Assembly (NCBI RefSeq): GCF_014200495.1
Contig: NZ_JACHBY010000003.1
Location: forward strand, 1 to 64,000
Direction of reading: 5' to 3'
Length of the DNA stretch: 64,000 nucleotides
Origin: Mucilaginibacter geliditolerans
Lineage (GTDB): Bacteria; Bacteroidota; Bacteroidia; Sphingobacteriales; Sphingobacteriaceae
Both the position numbers and the translations under genes were made by a program. Each line of letters begins with the position of its first letter. Positions within the stretch are counted from its first letter, which is position 1. The notes beneath the pieces were generated by a model. It saw only the letters and a list, made by a program, of their open reading frames with translations, ran no database searches and was not told the DNA's origin. Below are positions 21,146-39,922 of this stretch, piece after piece.

Positions 21146-21156
21146 AATTCTATAAC

Positions 21157-21173
21157 ATGACCTCCCCGGTCAT
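21157..21173. promoter_or_regulatory. Inverted repeat ATGACC-N5-GGTCAT upstream of the AraC gene
   Basis: Perfect 6-bp arms (21157-21162, 21168-21173) surround TCCCC, 12 bp before the AraC start codon and about 180 bp before the divergent PhyH gene. It stands out because the surrounding DNA is strongly AT-rich. It could be an operator or part of the leader. Confidence 0.4.
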
Positions 21174-21353
21174 AATCAAAAAATACAAGGATTGCTATCC
21201 TATAAATAACTTCCTAACTTATTTAACTGCAAAATAAAAAGATAATTTATCATAAAATGCAAATAAAAGTACTTTTTAGTAAAATAGAAATAATGGTGCA
21301 TTGTTTAAGTTTGTTATGCCAATTAACAAATTACTAACTAAGCATATAATTTC

Positions 21354-22172: not shown

Positions 22173-22181
22173 CAAAGTTAA

Positions 22182-22330
22182 AAGATACTGGTTGTCGAGA
22201 ATAGTAAAGCAATATCCTCTTCAATGCCAGCTATGGTAGTATAAATGACAGGAAGTATAACCCTGTAAAAGATTACATTTTGCGTAGCCGAAAGCTATTT
22301 TTCAAGATCTTCCATATCACATCAAATTAA
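22182..22330 (+). pseudogene. Possible remnant of a LytTR-type response regulator
   Basis: Just after the PhyH stop, a short frame from 22182 reads KILVVENSKAISSSMP before a stop, like the start of a receiver domain. A second frame from 22271 reads DYILRSRKLFFKIFHITSN, which recalls the start of a LytTR DNA-binding domain. Neither is a functional gene. The similarity is short and could be chance. The remaining DNA up to 22432 shows nothing I can name. Confidence 0.25.
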
Positions 22331-22432
22331 CATTCTAAAAAAAGTAACCAGGGACCATTCATTTTCTCATAAATAATATTTCAGGTGTGATTATTCATAG
22401 TCTATCATACACACATAAGTTGGCTATAAATG

Positions 22433-23557
22433 CTAAAATAATTTTGCTTGTGTGTTTCTTTTGCGAATAGCTTCTTCGGTTCTTGGAATAAAATTTTCTC
22501 TTACATTTAATTCGGCGGTGGCTTGAACTTCTTCAATAAACGGACGCAACTTTTTGTTGTAATCCTGAAACGCTAATTCAAAATTTCCGTTGTGTTTTTG
22601 TAAAGCATCAGCTAATGCGGTAGCACCATTTATTGCCAGCGATGCACCCATTCCAGCAGCAGGCGAAGCGCAATAGGCTGCATCGCCTACCAATGCCACT
22701 CTGCCTTTTGTCCACGATGGCATTTTTATTTGACAGAATTTATCGAAGTAAAAAGTTTTCGAACGCTGCACTTCTTTCAGTAATTCTGAGGTTCGCCAGT
22801 TTAGCCCCTCAAACTGTTCCAAAATAATTTTTCTTTGTCGCTCCTCATCACGGTAATCGTAAGGAATTTCTTTTTCTGAATTGAAACAAAAAACTATATC
22901 GGTCTTATTGTTGTAAGCATTAAGCATAATAGCCTTGTCTGGCACACCATACATTTGCATTGTTTTTTGTTTGACCAGCAATTTGCTGACGATGGTGATA
23001 GAAAAATAAGCTTTCAAAAAATGTGTGTATTCAGTTTCGTGGCCAAACCTAATTCTTCTAACAGCCGAATGGATACCGTCGCAGCCAAACAGCAGGTCAA
23101 ACTCGCTTTGCTTACCATCTTTAAAAGTAACTAAGATATTGTCTTTTGTTTCATTTAATGCTGTGATGCTACCACCGAAAATAAATTCAACATCATTTTT
23201 TAGCTTATCAAATAAAATATGCACAAATTTATCCCGTTCAATTTCGATATGGTCATCGGGAAGTTCCGCACCCTCATTTTTTAACAATATCGAGCCTTCG
23301 GTAATATCATCTGCATTTTTAAATTCTATCATTTCCAAATTCAGCCGGTTTGATTCTAATTGCTTAAAAATCCCCATACGCTTAGCGGCATCTGAGGCAA
23401 TCCCCTCTATATCAATAGCCCCGCCAGCAGTTCTAGGTTCGTTTGCAATTTCAACAACAGTTACTTTGTAACCCAGCTTGTCCATCCAATAGGCTGTTGA
23501 AAGTCCCGCAATACTTGCACCTGAAACAAGCACTTTTTTTTCTTTTAATGATTCCAT
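22433..23557 (-). CDS. FAD-dependent monooxygenase (PHBH/TetX-like)
   Basis: A 374-residue flavoprotein of the aromatic-ring hydroxylase/TetX-like class. The N-terminal dinucleotide motif is VLVSGASIAGLSTAYWMDKLG. The DG motif is LLFGCDGIHSAVRRIRFG, and the second FAD motif is GRVALVGDAAYCASPAAGMGASLAI. I start at ATG 23557 because the first residues upstream have no family character. An AraC regulator lies 80 bp upstream on the same strand and probably controls it. The substrate could be an aromatic compound or an antibiotic; the sequence does not decide. Confidence 0.9.
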   Translation of the reverse strand: MESLKEKKVLVSGASIAGLSTAYWMDKLGYKVTVVEIANEPRTAGGAIDIEGIASDAAKRMGIFKQLESNRLNLEMIEFKNADDITEGSILLKNEGAELPDDHIEIERDKFVHILFDKLKNDVEFIFGGSITALNETKDNILVTFKDGKQSEFDLLFGCDGIHSAVRRIRFGHETEYTHFLKAYFSITIVSKLLVKQKTMQMYGVPDKAIMLNAYNNKTDIVFCFNSEKEIPYDYRDEERQRKIILEQFEGLNWRTSELLKEVQRSKTFYFDKFCQIKMPSWTKGRVALVGDAAYCASPAAGMGASLAINGATALADALQKHNGNFELAFQDYNKKLRPFIEEVQATAELNVRENFIPRTEEAIRKRNTQAKLF

Positions 23558-23637
23558 TTTTATACGATTTAATTTGACGGGGCAAAGGAACATCGTATAA
23601 CAAGCGCAAACAATGACAATACAAAGCAGATATTGGA

Positions 23638-24495
23638 CTAATCGTGGTTTTTGTTTCGGAAAGCTAAAGCAGTCAATCCTGTAACTTTAGTAAATAACCG
23701 TGAAAAATAAGGATAATCATCATAGCCTAATGCTGCTGCAATTTCTTTTACCGATTTATCGGAATGATGCAGCAAGCGTTTTGCTTCTAAAATTACACGT
23801 TGCTGTATGTGATGTGAAACGGAATAGCCTGTTGTGTTTTTGACACATTCGTTTAGGTAAGCTGTAGATATATTTAATTTTAGGGCATATGCTGCGGGGC
23901 GTTTTAGTGTGGTGTAATTACGCTCCAATGTTTCCTTGAATGCTTTGGTGATAATCTCAAATCGTGAAAGTTTGTCCATTGATTTAGATTGCGCTAAATA
24001 TTGCGAAACCACTAATGCGATCAATGCGTTACAGCTGTCTTTTAATAAGGAATGATATAGTTTATCCTGTTTCCTTTCAGCAAATTTTAAGCAAAGTGAT
24101 ACCGCTTCGGAGATAATGGAAAACATTTCTTGCTGTAACACTAACGGCTTTGCGGGTGTGATGCCTTCCAACAGTTTTAGATATTCAGGATTCAGATTTT
24201 CATTATTAGTTGCCCAACTGCTGACTGTAAATTTTTTAAATGCTATTATACGATGTACCTGATTAGGGTGCATGTAGATGACAGACGGTGACTCAATTTT
24301 ATACTTTTGAAAATCAATTTCGATAGTAATAATTCCTTTTTCAAGCAGGTGAAATGAATGCCAGTTATGACGCTCTGATTGCTCCAATATTTCGAAAACA
24401 GATAAATCTTTAACCGATATTTTTTCAATGGAAATACCTGAGTTATACTCGTCACCAAAATGATTTATAGGTATTGATTCGTTTTTTTTGCGCAT
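23638..24495 (-). CDS. AraC-family transcriptional regulator
   Basis: A 285-residue regulator. The N-terminal cupin-like part includes SPSVIYMHPNQVHRI. The C-terminal HTH_18 domain includes AAYALKLNISTAYLNECVKN and VKEIAAALGYDDYPYFSRLF. It sits 80 bp upstream of the FAD monooxygenase gene on the same strand and is the likely regulator or cotranscribed partner of that gene. It is divergent from the surface-repeat protein gene at 24703 but is not obviously linked to it. No ligand can be inferred. Confidence 0.9.
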   Translation of the reverse strand: MRKKNESIPINHFGDEYNSGISIEKISVKDLSVFEILEQSERHNWHSFHLLEKGIITIEIDFQKYKIESPSVIYMHPNQVHRIIAFKKFTVSSWATNNENLNPEYLKLLEGITPAKPLVLQQEMFSIISEAVSLCLKFAERKQDKLYHSLLKDSCNALIALVVSQYLAQSKSMDKLSRFEIITKAFKETLERNYTTLKRPAAYALKLNISTAYLNECVKNTTGYSVSHHIQQRVILEAKRLLHHSDKSVKEIAAALGYDDYPYFSRLFTKVTGLTALAFRNKNHD

Positions 24496-24649: not shown

Positions 24650-24675
24650 TCAGGGTAAGGTATCCATTGTGTGTC
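24650..24675 (+). promoter_or_regulatory. Predicted ECF-sigma promoter, copy A (TCAGGGTAA-N12-GTGTC)
   Basis: The minus-35 element TCAGGGTAA is at 24650-24658 and the minus-10 element GTGTC at 24671-24675, followed by ATT. The start codon of the surface-repeat gene is 27 bp further on. The same two blocks with the same 12-base spacing occur upstream of the STN repeat protein (29891-29916) and the TonB receptor (33440-33465). A GGGTAA/GTC pair is the usual form of ECF-sigma promoters, and an ECF sigma gene lies 1.8 kb away. Confidence 0.75.
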
Positions 24676-24702
24676 ATTGCTGTAAATAAACAAAAAACAG
24701 AC

Positions 24703-25725
24703 ATGGAACGCGAATCGTACAACTACAACATTACATCAGCAATTATAAAAGTAGCTGCGCTGATGCTCCTGTTATTTACTGCAAATAGCATTTATGCGCA
24801 AAAAAATAACAATGACCGCCGGAACAACATTGGATTGATCTATCCTTTAAGCAGCAACTACACCAGCGCCCCCAGAGATACCAATAATTTTTCATTAAAC
24901 CTGTTAGCAGGGGTTTCTGCCGGGGAACGTGGTTTTTCACTTGCGGGTTTATCAAACGTTGTCCACGGGGATGCCACGGGGGTACAGATAGCTGGTTTCT
25001 CAAACCACATTGGTAAAAACGCAAATGGCGTTATGGTCGCGGGCTTTATAAATACTTATACGCAGGGAAAAGGAACAGCAGTAGCGGGTTTCGCCAATAT
25101 TGCCCGTAATAATACCGGCACACAGGTAGCCGGATTCCTGAATACAGGCGGCGATATGTCAGGGCTGCAATTAGCAGGTTTTATGAACGTTGCTAAAAAA
25201 CTGAAAGGCACCCAGGTTGGCTTTATAAACATTGCCGATAGCGCGGGTACCCAGATAGGCATTATCAATATCGCAAAAAATAACGATAAGAGCATCGGGA
25301 TATCTATTGACGAAAATGAAACTACGATGTTAAGTTTCCGCTCAGGCGGCAAACTCTTTTATGGCATTATAGGCATTGGCGGCAATCTTAAAAATACAAA
25401 GGAAAAATACGCTTATGAGGCCGGCCTTGGTATTAATATATTAAGGGAAAAAGCATTCAGCCTAAAAACAGAACTTATTACCAGTGGACTGGAAAGTTTT
25501 AAAGGCGATGAATACTTCAAATCGTCGTCATACCTGATGCCCGCCTTTAAAATTACCCGTTCCATCGAAATATTTGGCGGGCCATCCTTCAATTATGTTG
25601 AAACAGATAATGCTGAGGGAAGAAATTTAGTAAAGAAATACGTAACCAGCTGGACACGAAACAACGGCAGCGATTTGTATGGGTTATATTTTGGCTATAC
25701 GGCCGGAGTTCAGTTTCACTTTTAA
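24703..25725 (+). CDS. Surface-repeat barrel protein (LA_2272-like)
   Basis: A 340-residue exported protein started at ATG 24703, which gives a signal peptide ending at NSIYAQ. Residues 65 to about 190 hold roughly eight degenerate repeats of about 14-18 residues built on AGF-N, for example VAGFANIARNNTGTQ and LAGFMNVAKKLKGTQ. The C-terminal part looks like outer-membrane beta-strands ending in the aromatic GVQFHF, a typical barrel end signal. It resembles the LA_2272 family of surface-repeat proteins, whose function I do not know. It is paralogous to the C-terminal part of the STN protein at 28054-29829, with nearly the same repeat block. A predicted ECF promoter precedes it. Confidence 0.7.
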   Translation: MERESYNYNITSAIIKVAALMLLLFTANSIYAQKNNNDRRNNIGLIYPLSSNYTSAPRDTNNFSLNLLAGVSAGERGFSLAGLSNVVHGDATGVQIAGFSNHIGKNANGVMVAGFINTYTQGKGTAVAGFANIARNNTGTQVAGFLNTGGDMSGLQLAGFMNVAKKLKGTQVGFINIADSAGTQIGIINIAKNNDKSIGISIDENETTMLSFRSGGKLFYGIIGIGGNLKNTKEKYAYEAGLGINILREKAFSLKTELITSGLESFKGDEYFKSSSYLMPAFKITRSIEIFGGPSFNYVETDNAEGRNLVKKYVTSWTRNNGSDLYGLYFGYTAGVQFHF

Positions 25726-25818
25726 ATAACCCTGTTAAATCATTTATAAAACGCAAACCGCGTGTCATTAACAAGCATCATATACATTATCAAATACAAT
25801 TTAACAAAAACCAAGAAA

Positions 25819-26391
25819 ATGAAATCATTTAAATTACTTGCTACGGCTAGCTTAATTATACTGGGCATCAGTTCGGTAAAAGCGCAATCTACTACAGAGA
25901 TTGATTTTGGAATAAAAGCGGGTGCTAACTTCTCAACTTTAAAAACCGGCCTGGATGCCGTTACCGACAAATCGGGTAAAGTTGGGTTTAATGCAGGGGT
26001 ATTTGCCCGGATAGGTAAGGATTTTTACTTTCAGCCAGAAATTAACTATGTTACTTTTAGTGATAAATACAGCTTTAACGCTATTTCATATGACGCCAAA
26101 TTCAAACAATTAAATGTGCCATTAATGGCGGGATATAAGATAGTGAACACTTCGGCACTGATCTTCCGGGTATCAGCGGGCCCCGATTTTTATTACAACT
26201 TAAAAGATCCAGTTGCCCCAGCTGGTTTTAAATATAAAGACCTTACTGCCGGAGCGGTTTTAAACGCAGGTGTTGACATAGGGAGTTTGACACTGGATGC
26301 ACGTTACAGCATGGGCTTAAGTAAATTCAATGAGGGGCTTGGCCAAAAAGCAAATATCTTTAGTGTGGGTGTTGGTTTTAAATTTCAATAA
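25819..26391 (+). CDS. Small outer-membrane beta-barrel protein (porin/PorT-like)
   Basis: A 190-residue exported protein started at ATG 25819, giving the signal peptide MKSFKLLATASLIILGISS with cleavage after VKAQ. The mature part alternates hydrophobic residues with glycines (IDFGIKAGANFSTL, FNAGVFARIGKDFYFQPEINY) and ends in VGVGFKFQ, as in eight-stranded barrels of the PorT/OmpA-barrel type. It follows the surface-repeat gene by 93 bp. A GTGTCATT box at 25762 resembles the minus-10 of the ECF promoters, but the matching minus-35 is poor. A hairpin terminator follows its stop. The specific role is unknown. Confidence 0.75.
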   Translation: MKSFKLLATASLIILGISSVKAQSTTEIDFGIKAGANFSTLKTGLDAVTDKSGKVGFNAGVFARIGKDFYFQPEINYVTFSDKYSFNAISYDAKFKQLNVPLMAGYKIVNTSALIFRVSAGPDFYYNLKDPVAPAGFKYKDLTAGAVLNAGVDIGSLTLDARYSMGLSKFNEGLGQKANIFSVGVGFKFQ

Positions 26392-26394
26392 AGA

Positions 26395-26435
26395 AATAAA
26401 CCGGGCGGTTACATTTTTTAACTGTCCGGTTTATT
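26395..26435 (+). terminator. Hairpin terminator after the beta-barrel gene
   Basis: Arms of 17 bases (26395-26411 and 26419-26435) pair completely in plus-strand RNA if two G-U pairs are allowed; the loop is CATTTTT. It starts 4 bp after the barrel stop codon. The tail is TAAAT rather than a pure T-run, so it may be only partly efficient. It separates the barrel gene from the sigma gene. Confidence 0.7.
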
Positions 26436-26471
26436 TAAATAAGGTTAATTTGCCGAACATAATAGTTACTA

Positions 26472-27047
26472 ATGGATAGTACCGAAATAACGGCCGGTTT
26501 AACAGATAAAACCGAGGCCGCTTTTGAACATCTGTTTAAAAAACACTTCAGGGAACTGCATGCGTATGGTTTTTCATTACTGAAGGATTGGGATGCGGCT
26601 GAAGAAGTTGTGCAGGCCATATTTCTTAAACTTTGGGAAAAAAATGAATGGGTGCATATACAGATCTCCATAAAATCATACTTATACAAATCGGTTTATC
26701 ATGATTGCCTCAATTACATGAGGCGGCAGAAGATCCACTTAAAATACCAAACACATACTGTACATGCAATGGAGAACCGTGTTGATAATACTGACGGAAA
26801 AATAAAATTGAACGAGATGGAACAGCACCTGAGTAAGGCTCTGGATAAACTCCCTGAAAAGTGCCGTGCCATTTTTCATTTAAGTCGTTTTGAATATCTT
26901 AAATACCACGAGATAGCCAACCAGCTTGAAATCTCCATAAAAACAGTAGAAACACATATGGGTAAAGCATTACGGATATTGAGAAAGGAAATGAAAGAAT
27001 TTTTACCACTAATTGCACTAATGATATTTAATATATTCAGATCATGA
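26472..27047 (+). CDS. ECF-family RNA polymerase sigma factor (Bacteroidetes FecI-like)
   Basis: A 191-residue extracytoplasmic-function sigma factor. Region 2 (about residues 15-85) includes FKKHFRELHAYGFSLLKDWD and AEEVVQAIFLKLWEKNEW. Region 4 (about residues 120-175) includes LPEKCRAIFHLSRFEYLKY and IANQLEISIKTVETHMGKAL. Its stop overlaps the FecR start by the ATGA arrangement, so the two are translationally coupled. Three copies of a matching promoter lie within 7 kb, upstream of genes with surface functions. Its own upstream region lacks that promoter, so it is probably transcribed by the main sigma factor. Confidence 0.93.
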   Translation: MDSTEITAGLTDKTEAAFEHLFKKHFRELHAYGFSLLKDWDAAEEVVQAIFLKLWEKNEWVHIQISIKSYLYKSVYHDCLNYMRRQKIHLKYQTHTVHAMENRVDNTDGKIKLNEMEQHLSKALDKLPEKCRAIFHLSRFEYLKYHEIANQLEISIKTVETHMGKALRILRKEMKEFLPLIALMIFNIFRS

Positions 27048-28033
27048 AAGAGGATATGAGTGAAGATATATTGATCAAGTATATACTTGGGGAAACCACG
27101 GCAGTCGAGGCCCGGGAAGTTAAAGCCTGGACAGCTGTTAGCAGTGCAAATGCCCAAAAATTAGAAGAAATAAAGATCATACTTGAAGCCAGCAGCCGGC
27201 TGGCACAGGTGAGCCCATTGGGGGAAACTGAGGCATGGGAAAAGTTCAAACAAAACAGGGAATTGGCAAACAGGGAACCGAATAAGGTAATACCCATTAG
27301 AACCGGCAGCAATTGGTTGCGTATTGCTGCGGCTATACTGCTTTTGATTGGTGGCGGATGGGGGGCTTTTTATTTGTATAACGGACAAAAAGGCACAACG
27401 CAGGAATGGGTAAATCTAAAGGCAACAGATAAGGTATTGACAGATACCCTGCCCGACGGATCAATAGTACATGTGAATAAAAATTCAAGCATCGCCTATA
27501 ACAATGATTTTAAAGCACGAAGAATTGTGAAACTTACAGGAGAGGCGTTCTTCAATATTAAGCATAATGCAGCGGTACCTTTTACCGTGCATGTAAATGG
27601 CATTAATATAGCTGATGTAGGTACGGCATTTAATGTAAAAAGTAAATTGCACAATACCGAAATTATAGTTGAAAGCGGCATAGTAAGCGTAAGTAATAAT
27701 AATAATAACGCGGTGCAGTTACATGCCCGGCAGATGATCAGCATAAAGCCTGGCGACAAGGTATTTAAAGTAGAACGAAGCGACGACCTGCTATACAACT
27801 ATTATGTAAGTAATACCTTTATAGCTAACAAAACCCCTCTTTGGCGCCTGGTTGATGTATTGAACGAAGCTTATAATGCTGATATTAAAATTGAAAACAG
27901 CACGCTACGCAATACGCCAATAACCGTTACAATCAGGCTGCAGGATTCCCTAACGAACATATTAGCTTTAATAAAGGAAACAACACCCGGAATGCAGGTT
28001 GATGAAGCAGGTAAAACAACGATCATTAAATAA
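27044..28033 (+). CDS. FecR-family anti-sigma factor
   Basis: A 329-residue inner-membrane anti-sigma factor. The N-terminal 85 residues are cytoplasmic and would bind the sigma factor. One membrane segment lies at about residues 90-110 (WLRIAAAILLLIGGGWGAFY). The periplasmic FecR domain follows (DTLPDGSIVHVNKNSSIAY, ARRIVKLTGEAFFNIKHN), then a DUF4974-type C-terminus ending in QVDEAGKTTIIK. It overlaps the sigma gene by 4 bp. In known systems the FecR periplasmic part contacts the STN domain of a TonB receptor. Here the nearest STN domain sits in the convergent surface-repeat gene, whose stop is only 20 bp away. Confidence 0.93.
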   Translation: MKEDMSEDILIKYILGETTAVEAREVKAWTAVSSANAQKLEEIKIILEASSRLAQVSPLGETEAWEKFKQNRELANREPNKVIPIRTGSNWLRIAAAILLLIGGGWGAFYLYNGQKGTTQEWVNLKATDKVLTDTLPDGSIVHVNKNSSIAYNNDFKARRIVKLTGEAFFNIKHNAAVPFTVHVNGINIADVGTAFNVKSKLHNTEIIVESGIVSVSNNNNNAVQLHARQMISIKPGDKVFKVERSDDLLYNYYVSNTFIANKTPLWRLVDVLNEAYNADIKIENSTLRNTPITVTIRLQDSLTNILALIKETTPGMQVDEAGKTTIIK

Positions 28034-28053
28034 AGAAAGCAGGAGATATAATA

Positions 28054-29829
28054 CTACCACATGAACTGCAAACCACCTGTTATGCCAATAGAGGTAGTAT
28101 TTATGTGATTATTATTTATAGAATTTTCAATAACCCATCCATGAACTTTAGCCGCATCGCCTGCTTGCAGTGAAGTTAAATTTATAGACGGGCCGGCAAA
28201 CAATCCAAGGTGTTTACTTATTTTATATCTTGGTAAAACCTTCAATGAATTTGTGTGATACACGTCCTTTTTAGGATCTGTATTTAACGATGAAGAATTG
28301 ACGTATTCTCCGTCTAAAAAGAACCTCTTATTATTGACGATATGTGCCCCAAGGCCAACATCAAGCAAATACTTGTCCTTATCTGAGCCAAATCTATAAC
28401 CTATTCCCAGTAAGCTATATAATACCTTCCCCCCTGAGCGAAAGTCAATATGCGCATACAGGTTTTCATCTGTACTTACTGCAATGCTTTTGCCGCCATT
28501 TTTAATAAAATTGAAGATACCTATAGGGTAATCACTACTATCGGCAATATTTATAAAGCCGATCTGTGTTCCTTTAACCTTTTTTGCGACATTCATAAAA
28601 CCAGCCACTTGCAACGCTCCAACATCACCGCCTATATTCAGGAATCCGGCTATCTGTGTGCCGCTGCTATCGCGGGCTATATTGGTAAGGCCGGCAATAG
28701 TAGCCCCTTTATCAGTATTATATTTATTCATAACACCGGCCACCTGCAGCCCTTTGGCTGTTTTATCAAAGTTTGCTAACCCAGCCATTTGTATACCATT
28801 GCTAAAATTGCGTGTTTGATTTACCGCTCCCCCAATTTGTATTCCCCAGGCGTTGTTCAGCACATTATTATAAATACCGGCCATTTGTATACCCCTGGTA
28901 CTGTCGCCCACCACATTAAATATACCGGCCACTTGCAAAAAGCGCATGCTTTTACGGTTAATATTAAATACCCCGGCTAACTCAACTCCATCTATCCCTG
29001 CGGTGTATCCCCCTAACAGGTTCAGGGAAAAATGATCAATTACCTGGCTGCTATACATACCGTGTGTGCTTAAGCCCGGTGTAAGTGAAATTTGGTATGG
29101 GCTTGCAGCAAAAAAATTACCGAGGTTTAAATCCTGCACTAATTGTTTCGAACTGATAAAAAATCTGGCAAAACGGCTGTGCTCAATTCCCTTATTCGAT
29201 CCATTGTCGGGATAATAGCTATAACTTTTGTTGATCTGCTTATCATTCACAACAACATCAGCCAGCATGAACAGGGAGGTATCGCGATAATTTTCTTTAC
29301 TTGCCGTAAGTTTTACTGATCCGTTATAGTTCCTTAATTTAAGCTCAAAATATCCTTTATCGTTAGTGAGCGTTGATACCAGCAGATCCTTTTCATAAAC
29401 GCTGGCATGTGCGATTGCCTTACTATCGGCAATATCACGCACATACCCCTTCACCAAAGTTTGCGTTCCCTGGTCTTTACCTATTTCAGCAGTAAGGGTC
29501 AGTTTGTCTGGTGCAAATGTTAATACAATATATCCGGGGACTTCTTTAAATTCGTAATTTTCTCCCAGTAATTGTTCTAAAAGACTAAAAATTGTTCCAC
29601 GGAAGCCCGAAACTGATACTAAGCTGTCAGCGGGGATAATCCTATTGTTATAGGCAAAATAAAAATCTTGTTTGCTGGAAATTTTATTTAATATGCTTGC
29701 TATGGGCTGTTGTTTTATTTCCTTAATGGATACTTCCTTCATCAAATAGCTTTGGGCCGATAGCTTAATGCTAAAAATTAATAAAAACAATAACAGGGTT
29801 TGAGATAGTCGTTTTGGATTTAAAGTCAT
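28054..29829 (-). CDS. STN-domain surface-repeat barrel protein (no TonB receptor)
   Basis: A 591-residue exported protein started at ATG 29829. The signal peptide ends near KLSAQ. Residues about 30-95 form an STN (secretin/TonB short) domain (ASILNKISSKQDFYFAYNN ... FSLLEQLLGENYEF). Residues about 125-200 form a carboxypeptidase-regulatory-like fold (VKGYVRDIADSKAIAHASV). Residues about 270-460 hold about twelve AGxxN repeats such as IQMAGLANFDKTAKGLQ, and the C-terminus ends in GLQFMW like a barrel. No plug or TonB receptor barrel is present. The repeat block is nearly the same as that of the protein at 24703-25725. STN domains normally signal to FecR from TonB receptors, so this arrangement is unusual. 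A predicted ECF promoter lies about 60 bp upstream. Confidence 0.8.
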   Translation of the reverse strand: MTLNPKRLSQTLLLFLLIFSIKLSAQSYLMKEVSIKEIKQQPIASILNKISSKQDFYFAYNNRIIPADSLVSVSGFRGTIFSLLEQLLGENYEFKEVPGYIVLTFAPDKLTLTAEIGKDQGTQTLVKGYVRDIADSKAIAHASVYEKDLLVSTLTNDKGYFELKLRNYNGSVKLTASKENYRDTSLFMLADVVVNDKQINKSYSYYPDNGSNKGIEHSRFARFFISSKQLVQDLNLGNFFAASPYQISLTPGLSTHGMYSSQVIDHFSLNLLGGYTAGIDGVELAGVFNINRKSMRFLQVAGIFNVVGDSTRGIQMAGIYNNVLNNAWGIQIGGAVNQTRNFSNGIQMAGLANFDKTAKGLQVAGVMNKYNTDKGATIAGLTNIARDSSGTQIAGFLNIGGDVGALQVAGFMNVAKKVKGTQIGFINIADSSDYPIGIFNFIKNGGKSIAVSTDENLYAHIDFRSGGKVLYSLLGIGYRFGSDKDKYLLDVGLGAHIVNNKRFFLDGEYVNSSSLNTDPKKDVYHTNSLKVLPRYKISKHLGLFAGPSINLTSLQAGDAAKVHGWVIENSINNNHINTTSIGITGGLQFMW

Positions 29830-29890
29830 CAAGCTTATATATTATAATTTAACCCCGCAAAACTGATTAATATAATCGGGCGAACATAAA

Positions 29891-29916
29891 GACACCTATC
29901 TCCTGCTTTACCCTGA
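29891..29916 (-). promoter_or_regulatory. Predicted ECF-sigma promoter, copy B (TCAGGGTAA-N12-GTGTC)
   Basis: Read on the minus strand, TCAGGGTAA is at 29916-29908 and GTGTC at 29895-29891, with exactly 12 bases between. The start codon of the STN surface-repeat protein is about 60 bp downstream. The spacer sequence differs from the other two copies, so the conservation is limited to the two promoter boxes. Confidence 0.75.
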
Positions 29917-30029
29917 CCCTGTTTTTAAAATTAATTAGTTTAATATAAGAATGCTTGCTTATTATTGGATTGCGGCTATTTATATTCCGGCTAATCTACG
30001 GAATAGTTGAATTATAGACAGTCATATAT

Positions 30030-30081
30030 AACAACAGGTCAACAAAGATTCTGCATAAAGAACTTCTGTTGACCTGCTGTT
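30030..30081 (-). terminator. 15-bp hairpin, probable RNA structure on the minus strand
   Basis: Arms 30030-30044 and 30067-30081 around a 22-base loop. The one mismatch is a G-U pair only in minus-strand RNA, which favours a transcript reading from the TonB/DUF4249 genes. It lies 170 bp beyond the DUF4249-type stop. No T-run follows, so it may stabilise or process the 3' end rather than terminate. Confidence 0.5.
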
Positions 30082-30247
30082 TGCTGTAAAAATTTGATCT
30101 TTACTGTTTTTTGATAGGTTTCTTTGCGATTATATCTTCAGGCGACACAATAACGAAGGGTATATATCCTGAATTATTCAATGAAACGTCTATTTAAAAG
30201 CATTCCCTTTAAGACCTCAAAAAACGGCATCATATTTTTCGACCTCA

Positions 30248-31036
30248 CTACTTCACTATTTTTGACTTACTGCTTACTGTTTGTGCGCTGAAATACCCCA
30301 GGCAGCCGCCTGATATATTAGCAGTTGGTGTTGCGGGTGTTGCCAGATTGTCGTTATAAAAAGCAATATTTTCAGCTTCCTGTAAAAAGTTATATGCGCC
30401 CTTGTCTATCCCGTCAAGATTCACCAATACCAAATCATTCTTCTTAATAGCTCCTGTATCGGTTACCAGGTCCTCATTTATATATTTGCCGTTCATTAGC
30501 CGGTCTTCATCCGATTGAAACCGGTTAAGTTTTACGCCATTCACCGTAATATTGTATTTATAATAATTGACAAACGCAGCCGGATCCTGGTAGTGGACAA
30601 CCGGTTGAATCATGTTTTTTACAGAGGTGTAATCAAAAGTGATCGAATCAAGCACTACCGGAAGAGGCATTGTAGAAACAGCGATATAATTTTTCCCGTT
30701 AAGTACAACTTGAAGTTGGTAAGTATGTCCGGGCGTGCCTACGATGCTATGCGTGGTATAAATTCCTGCTGATGCCTCCGTTAGCATATCAATAACGCCA
30801 GCTGTTTGATCAGTTATTGTTACCGACGCGCCGGATACGTTAGGATAGGTATTGTCTGCGTAAAAGTTGACCGACTTTGAGATATTAATGTGATAAGGGC
30901 CGGTGGTATCACTTACCACGCCTTCAATAACAAGCTGCGGAGCCGAATTGGATAAAGGCGGTGTTATTACTTTTTGGCAGGATGAATAAAACAAAATGGA
31001 CGCAACTAAAGCTATGATGAGTGTTTGAATTTTCAT
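30248..31036 (-). CDS. DUF4249-type outer-membrane lipoprotein
   Basis: A 262-residue lipoprotein started at ATG 31036. The signal MKIQTLIIALVASILFYSSC ends in a lipobox cysteine. The mature part has the DUF4249 pattern: LVIEGVVSDTTGPYHINISKS, then a strand-rich domain with GHTYQLQVVLNGKNYIAVSTMP, and a C-terminal GGCLGYFSA motif. DUF4249 proteins are usually encoded directly after a TonB receptor, as here, where the receptor stop is 4 bp upstream. They probably act as the SusD-like surface partner, but their ligand is unknown. The last residues (VSSKSKIVK) overlap short CAGTA-type repeat DNA. Confidence 0.85.
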   Translation of the reverse strand: MKIQTLIIALVASILFYSSCQKVITPPLSNSAPQLVIEGVVSDTTGPYHINISKSVNFYADNTYPNVSGASVTITDQTAGVIDMLTEASAGIYTTHSIVGTPGHTYQLQVVLNGKNYIAVSTMPLPVVLDSITFDYTSVKNMIQPVVHYQDPAAFVNYYKYNITVNGVKLNRFQSDEDRLMNGKYINEDLVTDTGAIKKNDLVLVNLDGIDKGAYNFLQEAENIAFYNDNLATPATPTANISGGCLGYFSAQTVSSKSKIVK

Positions 31037-31040
31037 GTTT

Positions 31041-33377
31041 TTAGAATTTAAAGTTATAAGTAACTGATGGAACCATTTTAAACAGTGTAGTCTGCAACAC
31101 CTGTGTTTTGTTGGCATTTTTGGGGTCGGCCTGAAAAACTATATTATAAGGATTGGATTGGCCGTAAACATTGTAGATGGAAAAATTCCAGCTGCTTTCA
31201 TATTTGGCAGTTTTTTTAGCCAGGAGCGTTGCTCCAATATCGAGGCGGTTATAAGCTGGCAAACGGTTACTGTTCCTTGATCCGTAATAATAGACAGGGG
31301 CACCATCAACAGAAAATTTACCCGATGGCCAGGTGACCGCGTCACCTGTATTATAAACGAAATCAGCTGAAAATGTCCACTTCTTAGTGGCTTGGTACAT
31401 GCCTACCAATGAGATGTGATTAGTTTGATCTTGTGTTGCCGGATAATAATCTCCATTATTTATCCCAGGTATCTTCAGTTCCGTTTTTGATAGCGTATAA
31501 CTTAGCCAGCCGGTAAACTTTCCGGTTTTCTTTTTGATATAGGTTTCCCACCCATATGCCCTTCCTGAACCATACAACAGGTCACCTTCAATATTTTCGT
31601 TACCTACCAGGTCAGCCCCGTTTCTGTAGTCTATCTGGTTCTGAAGTTTTTTGTAATATAGTTCTGATGAAAACTCAAACCCAGCCTGCTGAAAAGTATG
31701 ATAATAACCCAGAGCCACCTGATCGGCTATTTCCGGCTTAATATTATTACTACTGGGTAAATAAACATTCGTAGTAGATAAATAAGCCGAGTTATTTAGA
31801 AGATGTATGTTCTGTGCATTTCTATCGTAAGATAATTTAACTGAACTGTTTGGATTAAGCTGATAGCTGGCGGCGAAACGTGGCTCCGGCGTGATATAGC
31901 TTTTAACAATTTTGCCGCTTTGATAATAGGTACTGTCCGTTTTATTGCCATCTTTATCATAGGTATAAAAGTTGCCCGGCCCCAGTACACTTAAATCGCT
32001 TAATCTTATTCCATAAGTGATTTTCAATTTGTCTGACGCATTCCATTCATCAGAAAGATATACTGCGCTTTCCAATGCATATTTCTTCTCTAAAAAAACA
32101 TCATTATAACTGGAAGATGCGCTTGCTATTGCGGTACCTGGCTGAGTAATATGGTAGGTTGATTCAAGGCCAAACCCGATCTTATTGGTTGCATTCAGGT
32201 AATAAGTAAAATCCTGTTTAAAATGGTAATCGGTTATAGCTGAAGATACTTTGATATTATCTGTATTATCGTCAATATTAACATCATAAGTATAATTGCT
32301 ATAAATAAGCGAAGTATTAGAGAATAGCTTGCTGCTGAAAATATGGTTCCATCTCAGAGTTCCTGTTGAATTCCCATAATCAAGCCCAAAGCTATTCCTG
32401 AAACTCATAACATCTTTCCCAAAATAACCGGATAAAAAGATCCGGTTATTAGCATCGATCTGGTAATTGCCTTTCAGGTTGATATCGTAAAAATATATTT
32501 TACTGTGTTTCGTAGTGGTATCAGATGCAAAGCCGGTAAAGAGATCAGCATAGCTGCGCCTTGCACTTACAATAAAGGATCCCTTACCATCAAATAGTGG
32601 CCCATCCACGGTAAGCCGGGAAGCTATTAATCCAATCCCTCCACTGGCACCAAATTTCTGGTTGTTACCATCATTCATCTGGATGTCTTCTACCGAGGAG
32701 AGCCGCCCGCCATAATTAGCCGGCATCCCCCCTTTATAAATTGAAATATCTTTTATAGCATCAGAATTGAACACAGAGAAAAATCCCAAAACGTGCGAGG
32801 GATTATAAACTGTGGCCTCATCTAGTAAGATAAGATTTTGGTCGGCCCCACCCCCACGTACGAAAAACCCTGCATTTCCATCTCCGGCAGATACGATGCC
32901 CGGCAGCAGCTGTATGGTCTTTAACACGTCCCTTTCTCCTAATAACACTGGCACATTATTAATATCTTTGATATTAAGGCGCTGAACACCAGGAGGTAGC
33001 GTTAAAATATTCTTGCTTTTGGATGAATTGGCGCCGATGACAACTTCTTTGAGCTGACTTTGGCCGGAACTAAGGCTAATGTTATTCAGCATATTTTTAG
33101 TTAATCGAATCCTTAAAGTATCTGTACGGTAACCTGTGTAAGTCGTCAGCATCGTATAACTGCCTTCAGGAACGGCAATGGAATAAAAGCCGTAATTATT
33201 TGTACTGACCCCCTTTCCGGGTAATTCCAAAAAGCTTACTGTTGCTGCGGGTAGCGTTTCGCCCGTTGTTTTATCCTTAATAGTTCCCGAAACGGTAAAC
33301 GTTTTTTTTGATTGTGCCTGTAAAAATCCAGGAACGATCATGATTAGAAATAAAATAAATTGTTTTAATTTTTTCAT
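31041..33377 (-). CDS. TonB-dependent receptor with carboxypeptidase-like N-terminal domain
   Basis: A 778-residue outer-membrane receptor started at ATG 33377, giving the signal MKKLKQFILFLIMIVPGFLQAQ. A CarboxypepD_reg-like domain (about residues 28-110) precedes the plug, which carries IQLLPGIVSAGDGNAGFFVRGGGADQ-type sequence near residue 175. A 22-strand barrel ends in PSVTYNFKF. It has no STN domain. It is cotranscribed with the DUF4249-type lipoprotein. A predicted ECF promoter lies about 63 bp upstream, linking it to the sigma/anti-sigma pair although it lacks the STN domain used by classical FecIR-regulated receptors. The imported ligand is unknown. Confidence 0.92.
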   Translation of the reverse strand: MKKLKQFILFLIMIVPGFLQAQSKKTFTVSGTIKDKTTGETLPAATVSFLELPGKGVSTNNYGFYSIAVPEGSYTMLTTYTGYRTDTLRIRLTKNMLNNISLSSGQSQLKEVVIGANSSKSKNILTLPPGVQRLNIKDINNVPVLLGERDVLKTIQLLPGIVSAGDGNAGFFVRGGGADQNLILLDEATVYNPSHVLGFFSVFNSDAIKDISIYKGGMPANYGGRLSSVEDIQMNDGNNQKFGASGGIGLIASRLTVDGPLFDGKGSFIVSARRSYADLFTGFASDTTTKHSKIYFYDINLKGNYQIDANNRIFLSGYFGKDVMSFRNSFGLDYGNSTGTLRWNHIFSSKLFSNTSLIYSNYTYDVNIDDNTDNIKVSSAITDYHFKQDFTYYLNATNKIGFGLESTYHITQPGTAIASASSSYNDVFLEKKYALESAVYLSDEWNASDKLKITYGIRLSDLSVLGPGNFYTYDKDGNKTDSTYYQSGKIVKSYITPEPRFAASYQLNPNSSVKLSYDRNAQNIHLLNNSAYLSTTNVYLPSSNNIKPEIADQVALGYYHTFQQAGFEFSSELYYKKLQNQIDYRNGADLVGNENIEGDLLYGSGRAYGWETYIKKKTGKFTGWLSYTLSKTELKIPGINNGDYYPATQDQTNHISLVGMYQATKKWTFSADFVYNTGDAVTWPSGKFSVDGAPVYYYGSRNSNRLPAYNRLDIGATLLAKKTAKYESSWNFSIYNVYGQSNPYNIVFQADPKNANKTQVLQTTLFKMVPSVTYNFKF

Positions 33378-33878
33378 AGCCGGTTGTGGTAACCTGATGG
33401 GGTTTGGGTGTAAGTGAAATATGTCATTTTGTATAGCATGACACACTCTTTGAGGTTTACCCTGATGGCTGATGATTTTTTACCTGTTTTAGGTATAAAT
33501 GATATCTTTTAATGGGCTTTCATCACTTTTGATGGAATGTGAATTGTGAAGAAATTGCATTATTAGCAGATACGGGAAAAACTCATCTTACCAAATAATT
33601 GGCTATTGCCTATGAAAAACTGGTAGTTGAAGGCGATGATACTTTCGAAACTTCCGGTAGCTGGTGAAAAATATGACGCCTTATCCACCCTATTCTCCAA
33701 TGCCAGGCTGGTTAATTCCATAACACTTTAACCACATTTATGGTGCGAAGAGGCAATGTTGTTATAATCTTTTATGCGCTTCTATTGTATATCCCGTTAC
33801 TGAGCATGGGATTACCAATTATACAGTTAACAACGTTCCCTGCAAATCATGATTACAAAACTACTTTTTCGTAAACGA
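33378..33878. other. Gap upstream of the TonB receptor, with possible gene debris
   Basis: This 501-bp stretch contains the ECF promoter at 33440-33465. Beyond it, short plus-strand pieces look protein-like but are interrupted. One reads KLPVAGEKYDALSTLFSNAR near 33645-33710. Another reads VYPVTEHGITNYTVNN near 33788-33835, which recalls the tail of HxlR-type regulators. I read this as a decayed gene, but no family is secure. Confidence 0.35.
33440..33465 (-). promoter_or_regulatory. Predicted ECF-sigma promoter, copy C (TCAGGGTAA-N12-GTGTC)
   Basis: On the minus strand TCAGGGTAA is at 33465-33457 and GTGTC at 33444-33440, with a 12-base spacer. The TonB receptor start codon is about 63 bp downstream. 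Together with copies A and B it defines a three-member local regulon. Confidence 0.75.
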
Positions 33879-34916
33879 TCAGCCCTTTGAAGATCCTCTG
33901 ATATTTAAGCTTGTACTAAGGGTTATAAATTGAGGCTGTTGATTTAGCAATGGCGTATTTAATTTATTCAACAGTACATTGATCACACTTTCAGCAATTT
34001 TTTCAATAGGTTGAGCAATAGCTGTTATCGGCGGCGAGTGCAGCTTAAATACATCATAATCATCAAATGAGATAATGGCCAGTTGTGATGGAACCTGTAT
34101 ACCCATTTCTTTTATCACCTTTAAACCGCATGAGCCAATATGGTCCGTTCCAAAAAGTATAGCATCCAGGTCGGGATGTTTAGTTAAGAAATCAGTTATA
34201 GGCTTAATTATAAGGTCTTCATTCTGGTTAAATACAATTTCTTTTACCAAAGGTTCAAGTCCGCTTTCTTTCATCGCGTTCTTATAGCCTTTAAGCCTGT
34301 CCTGCATTTGAGTTTGCGGCGAAGTAAATGTAATAAACGCGATATTCTTTTTGCCTTCACCAATTAAATGGCTGGTGGCGTTATATGTGCTGAACCTGTT
34401 ATTAATTTCAACATAGTCGGTAATTACTTTTGGCAAATGCCTGTCAAAAAACACGACCGGCAGGTTATCTTTCAATAAAGATTCAACATCCTCTTCAATG
34501 CCTTCGGGTGGTGCAATAATGTACCCATCCACATGCCTTTCACGAAACATGGTGATCAGGTCCTTGGTTTTTTTGGTATCGTTGTTAGTACTGCAATAAA
34601 TTATCTTATAGCCATTTTGATAGGCCCTATCCTCAATAAGCCTGGCTATTTTTGCAAAAAACGGGTTCGAAATATCCTCAACCATCAATCCTATAGTATT
34701 TGATTTACCCGTACGCAGGCTTTGGGCGATAGAGTTTGGCTTGAACCCAACTTCGTTTACATATTTCAGTACGCGGTCAACCAGTTCTTCCCCAATACGC
34801 ATTTCCTGGGCTTTCCCGTTAAGGATAAAGGAAATGGTAGTTTTAGATACGTTTAGGCTTTTAGCAATGTCGTTTATTGAAAGTTTCTTTTTCACTGAAG
34901 ATATTTTTCTTATCAA
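33879..34916 (-). CDS. LacI-family transcriptional regulator of the mannan locus
   Basis: A 345-residue LacI/PurR-type repressor. The helix-turn-helix SINDIAKSLNVSKTTISFIL is at about residues 13-32, and the hinge reads PNSIAQSLRTGKSNTIG. The sugar-binding domain follows (VEDISNPFFAKIARLIED, DGYIIAPPEG). There is no ATG before the HTH, so the start is TTG 34916 or GTG 34895. A TATATTTG sequence overlapping the TTG resembles a Bacteroidota minus-7 box, which would favour the GTG. It follows the FucP-like transporter by 24 bp. A shared motif with core CGGTTTAGC upstream of four units of the locus has LacI-operator form (central CG), and a palindromic version lies just before this gene. I infer it controls the mannan locus. 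Confidence 0.9.
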   Translation of the reverse strand: MIRKISSVKKKLSINDIAKSLNVSKTTISFILNGKAQEMRIGEELVDRVLKYVNEVGFKPNSIAQSLRTGKSNTIGLMVEDISNPFFAKIARLIEDRAYQNGYKIIYCSTNNDTKKTKDLITMFRERHVDGYIIAPPEGIEEDVESLLKDNLPVVFFDRHLPKVITDYVEINNRFSTYNATSHLIGEGKKNIAFITFTSPQTQMQDRLKGYKNAMKESGLEPLVKEIVFNQNEDLIIKPITDFLTKHPDLDAILFGTDHIGSCGLKVIKEMGIQVPSQLAIISFDDYDVFKLHSPPITAIAQPIEKIAESVINVLLNKLNTPLLNQQPQFITLSTSLNIRGSSKG

Positions 34917-34940
34917 ATATAGTTAAAACTTAAATAGGTA

Positions 34941-36173
34941 TTAATTCGGTTTAGCTAAACGCGGATACCCATAACCGAATAAAAATATAACTATATAACA
35001 TATAATAGGTAAATAATAAGCTGCAGCAATATCATGGTTAGCAATAAGGCCCATTAAAGGAGGAAATAAACCACCACCAATTACCCCCATAACGATAAAC
35101 GAAGAACCCTGCTGTGTTTTTCCTCCCAGATTTTTTAAGCCCAGACTAAATATAGTAGGGAACATTATGCTGAAAAAGAAATTAATGAATAGCAAAGCTA
35201 TAAATGACACCCATCCTGCGCCCTGGGCAACTATTAAACACATAACAATGTTTGCTGCTGCAAATATGCTAAGCAATCTATATGGCGCTATATATCGCAT
35301 TAAAAAGGTGCCGGTAAACCGCCCTACTATCAGCATAATCATGCTTAATGAAAAAAAGTAGCCCGCCTTTTCATCGCTGAGGTGCATAATTTCATGCCCG
35401 TAGTTTATAAAGTAGGCCCATGTACCACCTTGCGCGGCAACATTAAAAAACTGGGCTATAACTGCAAAAATAAAATGTTTATGATGGATCAGCTTTTTTT
35501 CAACCTGCTTCTTCTCTGCTGTACCTTCGTAATCTATCTGCTCATTATGCGCATGGGTTAAATGCGGCACTTTTACAAACAAAAAAAGGATACCAATAAG
35601 TGCGATCACCGAACCTATTACAACGTACAGGTTTTTCACTCCAATTAGATCATTAGAATGTATCTGCCCCTCCTTTAAAATAAAATAACTGCCTATAGCA
35701 GGCCCGATAACCCCTCCCAAACCATTAAAAGCTTGCGAGAAGTTTATACGCTGATCACTGGTGCGCTGATCACCCAGGGCTGCTACAAAAGGGTGTGCTA
35801 CGGTCTCGAGCGTTGCCAAACCACAGGCTAAAATAAATAATGCTATCCTGAAAAAGTCGAATGAAACAGCATCCGCAGCAGGGACAAACAGGAAAGCACC
35901 GAAAGCATACAGGAACAAGCCTAACAGTATTCCTTTTTTATAGCCAAATTTTTTCATGAATAAACCGGCCGGTATGCCCATTACGGCATAAGCTCCGAAA
36001 ATTGATAGTTGCACCAGGCCCGAGTGGGATTTTGAAATATGCAATACGTTTTGAAAATGCCTGTTTAAAACATCGCCAAGGGTAATGGCAATTCCCCAAA
36101 GCATAAAAAGAGCAGTAACAAAGAATAAGATCAGCCTGTACTTAGGTTCTGTAAAAGCCGGTTTCTGATCCAT
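34941..36173 (-). CDS. MFS sugar transporter, FucP/GluP-like
   Basis: A 410-residue inner-membrane sugar:H+ symporter of the FucP family. Twelve hydrophobic segments are visible, beginning with ILFFVTALFMLWGIAITLGD. The motif NRHFQNVLHISKSHSGLVQ and the ATLETVAHPFVAALG segment are characteristic of the family. It probably imports the monosaccharide released by the locus, likely mannose. It lies between the GH130 gene and the LacI gene on the same strand. Its last codons contain the palindrome GTTTAGCTAAAC, which may be an operator for lacI. The 133-bp gap upstream holds a 7-bp inverted repeat (36267-36288). Confidence 0.9.
   Translation of the reverse strand: MDQKPAFTEPKYRLILFFVTALFMLWGIAITLGDVLNRHFQNVLHISKSHSGLVQLSIFGAYAVMGIPAGLFMKKFGYKKGILLGLFLYAFGAFLFVPAADAVSFDFFRIALFILACGLATLETVAHPFVAALGDQRTSDQRINFSQAFNGLGGVIGPAIGSYFILKEGQIHSNDLIGVKNLYVVIGSVIALIGILFLFVKVPHLTHAHNEQIDYEGTAEKKQVEKKLIHHKHFIFAVIAQFFNVAAQGGTWAYFINYGHEIMHLSDEKAGYFFSLSMIMLIVGRFTGTFLMRYIAPYRLLSIFAAANIVMCLIVAQGAGWVSFIALLFINFFFSIMFPTIFSLGLKNLGGKTQQGSSFIVMGVIGGGLFPPLMGLIANHDIAAAYYLPIICYIVIFLFGYGYPRLAKPN
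34947..34962. promoter_or_regulatory. Candidate LacI operator overlapping the transporter 3' end
   Basis: The sequence CGGTTTAGCTAAACGC contains the perfect 12-bp palindrome GTTTAGCTAAAC at 34949-34960 and shares CGGTTTAGC with the operators listed elsewhere. It lies about 30 bp upstream of the LacI start and could mediate autoregulation. It is also inside coding sequence, so chance conservation cannot be ruled out. Confidence 0.45.
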
Positions 36174-36266
36174 TCCGCAGTTTAATCAATTTATAAATGG
36201 TGCTGTAAATTAATTAAATCTTATTCACATTTCCACACATTGTAAATTAATTATTGGTTTTTGTGC

Positions 36267-36288
36267 GATAAGCGCCTATCGGCTTATC
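36267..36288. repeat. 7-bp inverted repeat GATAAGC/GCTTATC between GH130 and the transporter
   Basis: Arms 36267-36273 and 36282-36288 around an 8-base loop, 19 bp after the GH130 stop. In minus-strand RNA it would form a hairpin without a T-run. It may be a weak attenuator or a processing site. Confidence 0.45.
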
Positions 36289-36306
36289 TACCACGCCGTA
36301 CCATCT

Positions 36307-37470
36307 TTATTTATTCTTTGCCGGATCATATATAGCTACGGCTACTCTTGAATCGGCGCAGCCATAATACAGGAACCATTTGGCATTGAAATACACCAAT
36401 CCTTCGGTAAAAACAGTACCTGCGGGATATTGGCCGCTTTTTTCAAACGGCGCTTCGGGTATAAAATAAGGCTTATCCAATCGTGCTACTACCTTTGTCG
36501 GGTCATTTAGCGAGAACAAGGCCTGGCCACCGCAATAGGTATTTGATGCGTAGTTTTTGTCGCCATTGGTATCGCTGTTTTTGCCATTGTAGAACAATAA
36601 GATCCCTTTATCAGTAATGATAGATGGCGGCCCGCATTCAGTGTAGATACTATCAAAATAGCCGTTTCTGGGTGAAAATAATATTTTCAATGTCCCATCG
36701 GTATTAATCAATGGTTCCCAATTAACCAAGTCGGTTGATGTGGCGGCGTAAACATTTTTCTCGCCCCAATATATCCAGTATTTGCTCTGTACTTTGGCTA
36801 TTACCTGTTTGCCGTTCACCAGTTTGGTAACAATTGAGGCTGATTTTGATTGGATATCAAAGAACCTCCCGTTATAAGCCTGTTTAAAAACTGGTCCATA
36901 CTTTTTCCATTTGAACAGATCACGCGATGTTGCTGCGGCTAAACGGGGAACTTTGCCATTCCATTCGGTGTAAAGAATAAGATATGTACCATCAGCAGTT
37001 ACTGCCACACGCGGATCTTCACAGCCGCCGCGCCATTCATATTCTTTCATGTTATCATCTGCCGGAAACAGCACTGGCTTGGAGAACCTTTTCAGGGTAG
37101 TTCCATCTGGAGTTTCGGCAATGCCCAGGCGCGAGGTGCGCTGACTGATTCCCTTGCCTGAATTATCTTCAGAGCGATAGATCACATATATCTTGCCATT
37201 CTTAACTGTAGCCGCGGGGTTAAATGTATCGTTTGATTCCCAGTGCCATATTTTTTGGTTCATGGGATCAAAGAACTGGCTTGCAGTATCAGGTGAAATG
37301 ATCGGGTTAACATTTGCAGGCCTAACAAATGGGCCGAATGCCCATGTGGGTAATTTGGCAGTTACCTGTTGAGCATTTACCACACTGGCTGTTACTAAAG
37401 CAATCATTATTATAGCGATGGGTTTAAAACCCATCGCTACGGTTGGTAAATATTTATATCCCTTTTGCAT
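36307..37470 (-). CDS. GH130 family beta-mannoside hydrolase/phosphorylase, exported
   Basis: A 387-residue five-bladed propeller of the GH130 type. Family motifs are FNPAATVKNGKIYVIYR, GGCEDPRVAVTADGTYLILYT, CGPPSIITDKGILLFYNG and YPAGTVFTEGLVYF followed by YYGCADSRVAVA. GH130 enzymes act on beta-mannosides, either by phosphorolysis or by hydrolysis (beta-1,2-mannosidases of the BT3780 type). An export signal suggests the hydrolytic kind, because phosphate-dependent enzymes are usually cytoplasmic. The N-terminus is odd: residues about 11-19 (VAMGFKPIA) are the translation of a 27-bp palindrome inserted in the signal-peptide region. ATG 37470 keeps it; ATG 37434 is an alternative start. The gene follows the GH92 gene by 6 bp. 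Confidence 0.88.
   Translation of the reverse strand: MQKGYKYLPTVAMGFKPIAIIMIALVTASVVNAQQVTAKLPTWAFGPFVRPANVNPIISPDTASQFFDPMNQKIWHWESNDTFNPAATVKNGKIYVIYRSEDNSGKGISQRTSRLGIAETPDGTTLKRFSKPVLFPADDNMKEYEWRGGCEDPRVAVTADGTYLILYTEWNGKVPRLAAATSRDLFKWKKYGPVFKQAYNGRFFDIQSKSASIVTKLVNGKQVIAKVQSKYWIYWGEKNVYAATSTDLVNWEPLINTDGTLKILFSPRNGYFDSIYTECGPPSIITDKGILLFYNGKNSDTNGDKNYASNTYCGGQALFSLNDPTKVVARLDKPYFIPEAPFEKSGQYPAGTVFTEGLVYFNAKWFLYYGCADSRVAVAIYDPAKNK
37413..37439. repeat. 27-bp palindromic repeat inside the GH130 signal peptide
   Basis: Arms of 13 bp (TAGCGATGGGTTT and its complement) flank one central base at 37426. The form matches a dispersed GCGATGGGTTT-type palindrome that I recall from other Bacteroidota genomes. 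Here it lies inside the open frame and adds about nine residues to the N-terminus. Confidence 0.8.
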
Positions 37471-37476
37471 AATTTA

Positions 37477-39693: not shown

Positions 39694-39720
39694 TTGCAGG
39701 TTGTATGTATCGTTGTTTGT

Positions 39721-39740: not shown

Positions 39741-39750
39741 ATTCCCTCAC

Positions 39751-39900: not shown

Positions 39901-39922
39901 TTAGCGGGTGAGCGAGTAGTAA

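Follow-up and report, generated by a model that had tools for sequence, protein, structure and literature searches.

A predicted ECF sigma factor regulon of outer-membrane genes in Mucilaginibacter geliditolerans, with an STN-bearing beta-barrel protein as its candidate sensor

Genes and repeated sites of the locus

The stretch of DNA analysed here (the window; 64,000 nucleotides, positions 1 to 64,000 of contig NZ_JACHBY010000003.1 of Mucilaginibacter geliditolerans) holds, between positions 24,650 and 33,465, seven genes and three copies of a two-part site. Based on the sequence and its comparison across genomes, these very probably represent a self-contained switch of this soil bacterium, in which an extracytoplasmic function (ECF) sigma factor turns on a small outer-membrane gene set via one two-part promoter; in place of the usual nutrient receptor, an atypical surface protein probably acts as the sensor.

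The three copies match TCAGGGTAA-N12-GTGTC exactly and are located at 24650-24675 (+), 29891-29916 (-) and 33440-33465 (-), that is, 27, 61 and 62 bp 5' of the ATG codons of an LA_2272-family surface-repeat protein, an STN-bearing protein and a TonB-dependent receptor, respectively. A preliminary description of the window, made from its letters, had reported the same positions and strands, distances of 27-63 bp to the start codons and spacers unlike each other, and all of these hold; the two boxes it had singled out are indeed conserved, and comparison across loci extends them to the fuller consensus TMAGGGTAAA-N11-GTGTYAT. The whole-genome search that it had called for returned the three window sites, all inside 9 kb, as the only exact matches in 6,500,845 bases, against a chance expectation of about 0.05 exact matches per genome (assuming even base frequencies). 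With up to two mismatches allowed, 36 matches were found (3 exact, none with one mismatch and 33 with two), compared to 14, none of them exact, for the reversed pattern. A possible decayed promoter, with the GTGTC half retained and the -35 half lost, lies at 25741-25766 (+), 5' of the second gene of the locus.

Four genes are on the forward strand. The first (24703-25725) encodes the LA_2272-family protein (340 amino acids), a probable outer-membrane protein that matches NF047436 with 31.5 bits (cut-off, 25 bits) and whose gene is preceded by the motif in other loci as well. It is followed by the gene of an outer-membrane beta-barrel protein (OMP; 25819-26391; PF13568), a hairpin (26394-26436, +) that is a possible attenuator or processing element, and the genes of the ECF sigma factor (26472-27047) and of a FecR-type anti-sigma factor (27044-28033). 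The sigma factor is of the group-4 (ECF) Bacteroidetes type (TIGR02985, 168.9 bits vs. a cut-off of 126.4) and has sigma70 regions 2 and 4 (Sigma70_r2 and r4_2). The anti-sigma gene adjoins that of the sigma factor, as in FecI/FecR pairs, and its product (329 amino acids) has FecR (51.2 bits) and FecR_C (36.7 bits) as its sole Pfam families and a hydrophobic stretch at about residues 88-108, as read by eye from the letters.

The remaining three genes are on the reverse strand. The gene at 28054-29829 encodes the proposed signal transducer, a 591-amino acid protein composed of STN, CarbopepD_reg and an LA_2272-like beta-barrel, in which no TonB plug was found (the STN protein hereafter). Its NF047436 score is 19.6 bits, below the 25-bit cut-off, and its C-terminal part shares 39% identity with the LA_2272 protein; its close relatives are from Mucilaginibacter, with that of M. 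mallensis being 95% identical. The TonB-dependent receptor (31041-33377) has CarbopepD_reg and Plug domains with no STN domain called, and its gene adjoins that of a DUF4249 protein (30248-31036). None of the seven locus proteins belongs to the SusD family.

Association of the site with the sigma factor

Orthologues of the sigma factor (E<=1e-60) were found in 21 of 149 congeneric genomes, M. geliditolerans included, at 22 loci altogether. The exact TCAGGGTAA-N12-GTGTC pattern, assessed in 69 congeneric genomes (again including M. geliditolerans), occurred in 7 of the 10 sigma-positive vs. 1 of the 59 sigma-negative genomes (Fisher p 9e-7) and in 4 of 232 genomes outside the genus, while the reversed pattern gave 4 matches in 301 genomes. 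A relaxed pattern, TMAGGGTAA-N12-GTGTH, was present in all 21 sigma-positive genomes vs. 30 of 128 sigma-negative ones (p 6e-12; 79 vs. 38 matches, or a mean of 3.8 vs. 0.30 per genome), and its reversed control gave 16 matches in 149 genomes. The relaxed test is partly circular because the letters M and H came from the sigma loci, which is not the case for the exact test, and both p values are optimistic because the genomes are related.

The same genes are preceded by the site from locus to locus. Counting sites with at least 12 of 14 positions matched in 31 loci, we found one 5' of the LA_2272 gene in 21 of 22 cases (the single miss, L097, has a 13/14 site near the aligned start), of the TonB receptor gene in 9 of 9, of the STN-protein gene in 24 of 29 (a split STN gene in L172 fell out of this count) and of the OMP gene in 8 of 21; of 30 sigma genes, which include an unrelated one in L089, 5 have a site directly 5' of them. 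In one genome (G305), the receptor gene is on another contig and nevertheless retains its site (L125), and in loci of Pedobacter and Chitinophaga silvisoli the sites are unchanged or differ slightly. The preliminary description had offered the link to this sigma factor as inference; it is supported here by a motif that follows the sigma orthologue across genomes, precedes the same genes despite diverged spacers, stays with a detached receptor gene and recurs in Pedobacter and one Chitinophaga.

Additional targets appear to lie away from the sigma locus. In eight sigma-positive genomes, a DUF6268 gene that is distant from the sigma locus, or located on a different contig, bears the site (identity was established by Pfam for L143, L138 and the in-locus copy of L093, and by at least 60% sequence identity for the others); the M. 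geliditolerans homologue of DUF6268 shares 35% identity only, and no consensus site lies outside the locus in this genome. The relaxed sites of sigma-positive genomes off the sigma loci were 29, namely L054 and 28 others, of which 8 were inside reading frames and 20 were intergenic. The latter precede 8 DUF6268 genes, 1 TonB receptor, 3 DinB genes, 2 desaturases, 1 FecR gene (L139) and 5 other or short frames, with a third desaturase site (L144) counted as inside a short opposite frame. Fatty-acid desaturase genes are repeatedly found downstream of the motif (Pfam scans covered L130 and L172): in Pedobacter sp. L105 (L172) the gene starts 20 bp after the site and is codirectional with the sigma gene, and in L130, L134 and L144 the distance is about 270-330 bp. 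Regulation of DinB and desaturase genes in Mucilaginibacter is doubtful because the sites are about 150-330 bp away. Among the six exact matches off sigma loci that were fetched, four (L056, L059, L060 and L061) fall within long frames and resemble chance hits; the others lie 254 bp 5' of an 899-amino acid frame with weak receptor similarity (L054) and 5' of an OMP homologue on another contig of genome G093 (L058).

Several observations weigh against the link between the site and this sigma factor. Sigma-negative genomes are somewhat above the reversed control (38 matches in 128 genomes vs. 16 in 149), and some of their matches look real, such as those of G276, where a sigma relative of 46% identity accompanies a rearranged form of the locus, and of G302 and G329, which have a site 5' of DUF6268. 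G302 is 99% complete and lacks a close sigma: neither a sigma relative at E<=1e-30, with 46 candidates examined, nor an STN protein at E<=1e-15 was found, so its site is either a relic or the same promoter read by another sigma factor. Five of the 29 STN-protein genes have no site; those of L053 and L085 could be transcribed by read-through from receptor genes, whereas those of L055, L094 and L095 have no upstream receptor genes to be read through from. Finally, the diverged locus L220 (41% sigma identity) has an STN protein and no convincing site.

Alternatively, the sites could be genuine ECF promoters shared by several related sigma factors, the one at 26472 being a member of this group. 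G302 bears a site in the absence of the close sigma; G276, whose only relatives share 46% and 42% identity, has two sites at its locus, one matching the full consensus and the other close to it; and G288, probably M. mallensis, carries two sigma paralogues, each with these sites. On the other hand, the genome of M. geliditolerans has no full-consensus site off this locus despite 58 first-look sigma candidates (22 scored), and the lower mean number of relaxed matches in sigma-negative genomes given above also speaks against sharing. We consider sharing an unlikely, although still serious, explanation.

The anatomy of the site bears on whether it is a promoter at all. The consensus, derived from 64 distinct sites, has an A/T-rich stretch upstream and a mostly weakly conserved spacer whose length is rigid: the distance between the boxes was 12 bases at 56 sites, and no site with 6-11 or 13-19 bases was found in 573,871 bases from 29 loci. 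Of the 50 full-consensus sites in the 22 sigma loci, 49 are in sense orientation and at most 300 bp 5' of a gene belonging to one of five types; the remaining one (L093) is 5' of a DUF6268 gene, a target elsewhere. That is, the site consists of two unlike boxes at a fixed spacing, in sense orientation and shortly 5' of a gene, as ECF-type promoters do. A pair of conserved boxes separated by some two turns of the helix, together with an AraC-family gene just upstream (23638-24495), might instead indicate the operator of a separate activator or repressor. However, the boxes are unlike each other and non-palindromic, all 50 full-consensus sites in sigma loci face a gene start, the presence of the site tracks the ECF sigma orthologue, and the portions consulted of two studies of Bacteroidota ECF-type promoters report CGT or TGTT near -10 (PMC9723704, PMC12596196); judging from the rigid spacing and the sense orientation, a separate operator is very unlikely. 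Chance repetition of a 14-base word, which has nothing in its favor except the few sites in one genome, is ruled out for practical purposes by the low number expected per genome and by the cross-species comparison, in which the sites are kept 5' of the same genes. We consider it very likely, from sequence and comparison, that the three sites are promoters and form the regulon of the sigma factor at 26472.

Probable autoregulation and the candidate signal transducer

The preliminary description had also stated that the sigma/fecR pair lacks the promoter itself. This is correct for the immediate upstream region, with no site within 300 bp of the sigma gene (best, 8 of 14 positions), but the gene is codirectional with, and downstream of, the 24650 site. 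In 18 of the 22 loci, sigma-fecR similarly ends a codirectional run that follows an LA_2272 gene (usually plus OMP) behind a site, albeit a weak one (12/14) in L096, and in the other four (L053, L055, L094 and L095) a site lies 73-229 bp 5' of sigma. Thus, the 24650 site probably heads the whole LA_2272-OMP-sigma-fecR run in the window, and the sigma factor and FecR are probably autoregulated through it. Hairpins of differing sequence are located between OMP and sigma in 19 of the 21 loci examined; compared to mononucleotide shuffles, the window hairpin has a z of -6.4, and hairpins are weak in a few loci (L096, -1.4; L089, -1.7). Such a hairpin 5' of sigma could terminate transcription, a point against the explanation given below; because the window hairpin is a possible attenuator, read-through into sigma is inferred.

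As to how the signal might reach FecR, profile comparison places an STN domain on the probable outer-membrane protein encoded beside fecR. The N-terminal STN region of the STN protein shows homology to STN domains in long SusC-type proteins encoded elsewhere in this genome: the profile probability is 97% and the score 57.8, whereas none of 40 column-shuffled controls scored above 19.0. The comparison was made against 18 of the 20 STN sequences of this genome over the cut-off, with two partial ones omitted. A CarbopepD_reg domain follows in 12 of 12 homologues, in none of which was a Plug or receptor family found at E<=0.1, and hence the protein is not a TonB-receptor transducer by its domains. 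The remainder was modelled as a beta-barrel from about residue 281 (per-residue confidence, pLDDT, 60-93), and the top Foldseek rows for the whole model were membrane barrels, although weak (best E 0.0095). Among the seven gene types, it is that of the STN protein that comes next beside fecR in each of the 22 sigma loci, less than 0.9 kb away. In three diverged loci (L218, L219 and L220), sigma, fecR and the STN-protein gene follow one another in this order on a single strand, as in fecIRA.

Not all data agree with an STN domain in this position. The Pfam STN model is silent on the protein even at E 10, and the AlphaFold models are unsure over the STN part, the full-length model being poor N-terminally. 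A model of the N-terminal piece aligns with solved structures almost only over the CarbopepD_reg-like part, and when solved structures were searched by sequence with this piece, 8 rows passed E<=10; SusC or TonB-receptor chains ranked best, over the CarbopepD region, and no row covered STN. Alternatively, FecR might take its signal from the TonB receptor, or from a different receptor with an STN domain encoded elsewhere, with the STN barrel being only a target. Classical transducers are TonB receptors, and the 20 STN matches of this genome over the Pfam cut-off (own score) are all in frames of 1,105-1,261 codons. Nonetheless, no STN domain was called in the receptor of the regulon, no receptor was found in most sigma loci, and it is the STN barrel that adjoins fecR throughout and takes the fecA position in the three diverged loci. 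Hence, control by a receptor seems improbable to us, and we favor the STN-barrel protein as the signal transducer, with moderate confidence.

Taken together, the explanation that we consider very likely combines the promoters, the regulon and the STN-barrel transducer as follows. The sigma factor would read the two boxes, TMAGGGTAAA at -35 and GTGTYAT at -10, with 11 bases between them, and would be kept inactive by FecR. The STN domain of the barrel protein would meet the periplasmic domain of FecR, as the FecA signalling domain meets FecR, and a signal from outside the cell, or an altered outer membrane, would free the sigma factor. The freed sigma would then start transcription at the three sites, giving transcripts for (1) the LA_2272 protein, OMP, sigma and FecR, provided that the hairpin is read through, (2) the STN protein, and (3) the TonB receptor and the DUF4249 protein. 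The sites, their conservation, the sigma link and the domain content come directly from sequence and comparison, whereas the start of transcription at the sites, their binding by this sigma factor, the contact of STN with FecR, the passage through the hairpin and the signal itself are parts of the proposed scheme. We tentatively propose that a TonB-independent, LA_2272-like STN barrel acting as the transducer of a FecI/FecR system may sense the state of the surface or outer membrane rather than nutrient import and answer by outer-membrane remodelling. If true, the remodelling output would comprise barrels and DUF6268, to which some relatives may add a fatty-acid desaturase.

Two neighbouring gene groups were also noticed. 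The region adjoining the regulon (33879-42208) encodes a LacI regulator, an MFS transporter and GH130 and GH92 genes and resembles a mannoside-utilisation cluster (the frame at 39923-42208 was assigned to it by eye, from its likeness to its neighbour). On the other side (20267-24495), AraC-family regulators stand beside a PhyH dioxygenase (21354-22172) and an FAD-binding oxidoreductase (22433-23593), the frame at 20267-21145 having been judged by eye.

Comparison with known systems

Bacteroidota may carry dozens of ECF sigma factors (B. thetaiotaomicron has 50 according to the consulted portion of PMC12596196), and a 2013 study, in the portion consulted, calls the prediction of their promoters a challenging task (PMC3878776). 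The promoter described here is defined well enough to list targets genome by genome, and its definition by comparison is testable with one reporter. The ECF promoters of Flavobacterium SM6 and B. thetaiotaomicron likewise have CGT or TGTT near -10, while the consulted portions of the same two papers (PMC9723704, PMC12596196) contain no mention of the -35 box TMAGGGTAA; PMC12596196 terms its own motif search non-significant. Among the papers that our literature search found to pair GGGTAA with ECF, none appears to be on Bacteroidota.

Among Bacteroidota systems, the ECF/anti-sigma/SusC glycan systems of Bacteroides are built from the same class of parts, and their transducers share an N-terminal STN-CarbopepD_reg arrangement, which the present genome's long STN proteins show as well. 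They differ from this locus in that no SusD is found here and in that the promoters here were defined by comparison. The Dma/Das dual membrane-spanning anti-sigma systems of Bacteroides likewise couple a beta-barrel to a Bacteroidota ECF sigma factor; however, according to the portion of PMC13088901 consulted, Dma unites barrel and anti-sigma factor in a single fusion protein and works with an ECF21 sigma factor, whereas here the barrel and FecR are separate proteins that we propose to be joined through STN.

There is also a close resemblance to FecI-FecR-FecA of E. coli and PupI-PupR-PupB of Pseudomonas. Shared with these are an ECF sigma factor, a FecR protein with FecR and FecR_C regions, an STN domain on what is probably an outer-membrane protein, whose gene adjoins fecR, and, 5' of that transducer gene, a promoter predicted to depend on the sigma factor. 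PupR has two periplasmic subdomains, as described in the consulted portion of PMC7186176, to which FecR and FecR_C are likened here by position only. Further, fecIR is transcribed by sigma70 (PMC9249621, portion consulted), whereas the sigma factor studied here appears to control itself. Unlike in these systems, STN is here on an LA_2272-like barrel without a plug, and none was called in the TonB receptor encoded at the locus; STN on a non-TonB barrel offers a clean way to ask whether FecR surface signalling needs TonB-driven transport. Because a TonB receptor as the STN-bearing transducer, a defining feature of the family, was looked for and was not found, we read the present system as one that works like the FecI/FecR family and is best called a variant of it with a non-TonB transducer.

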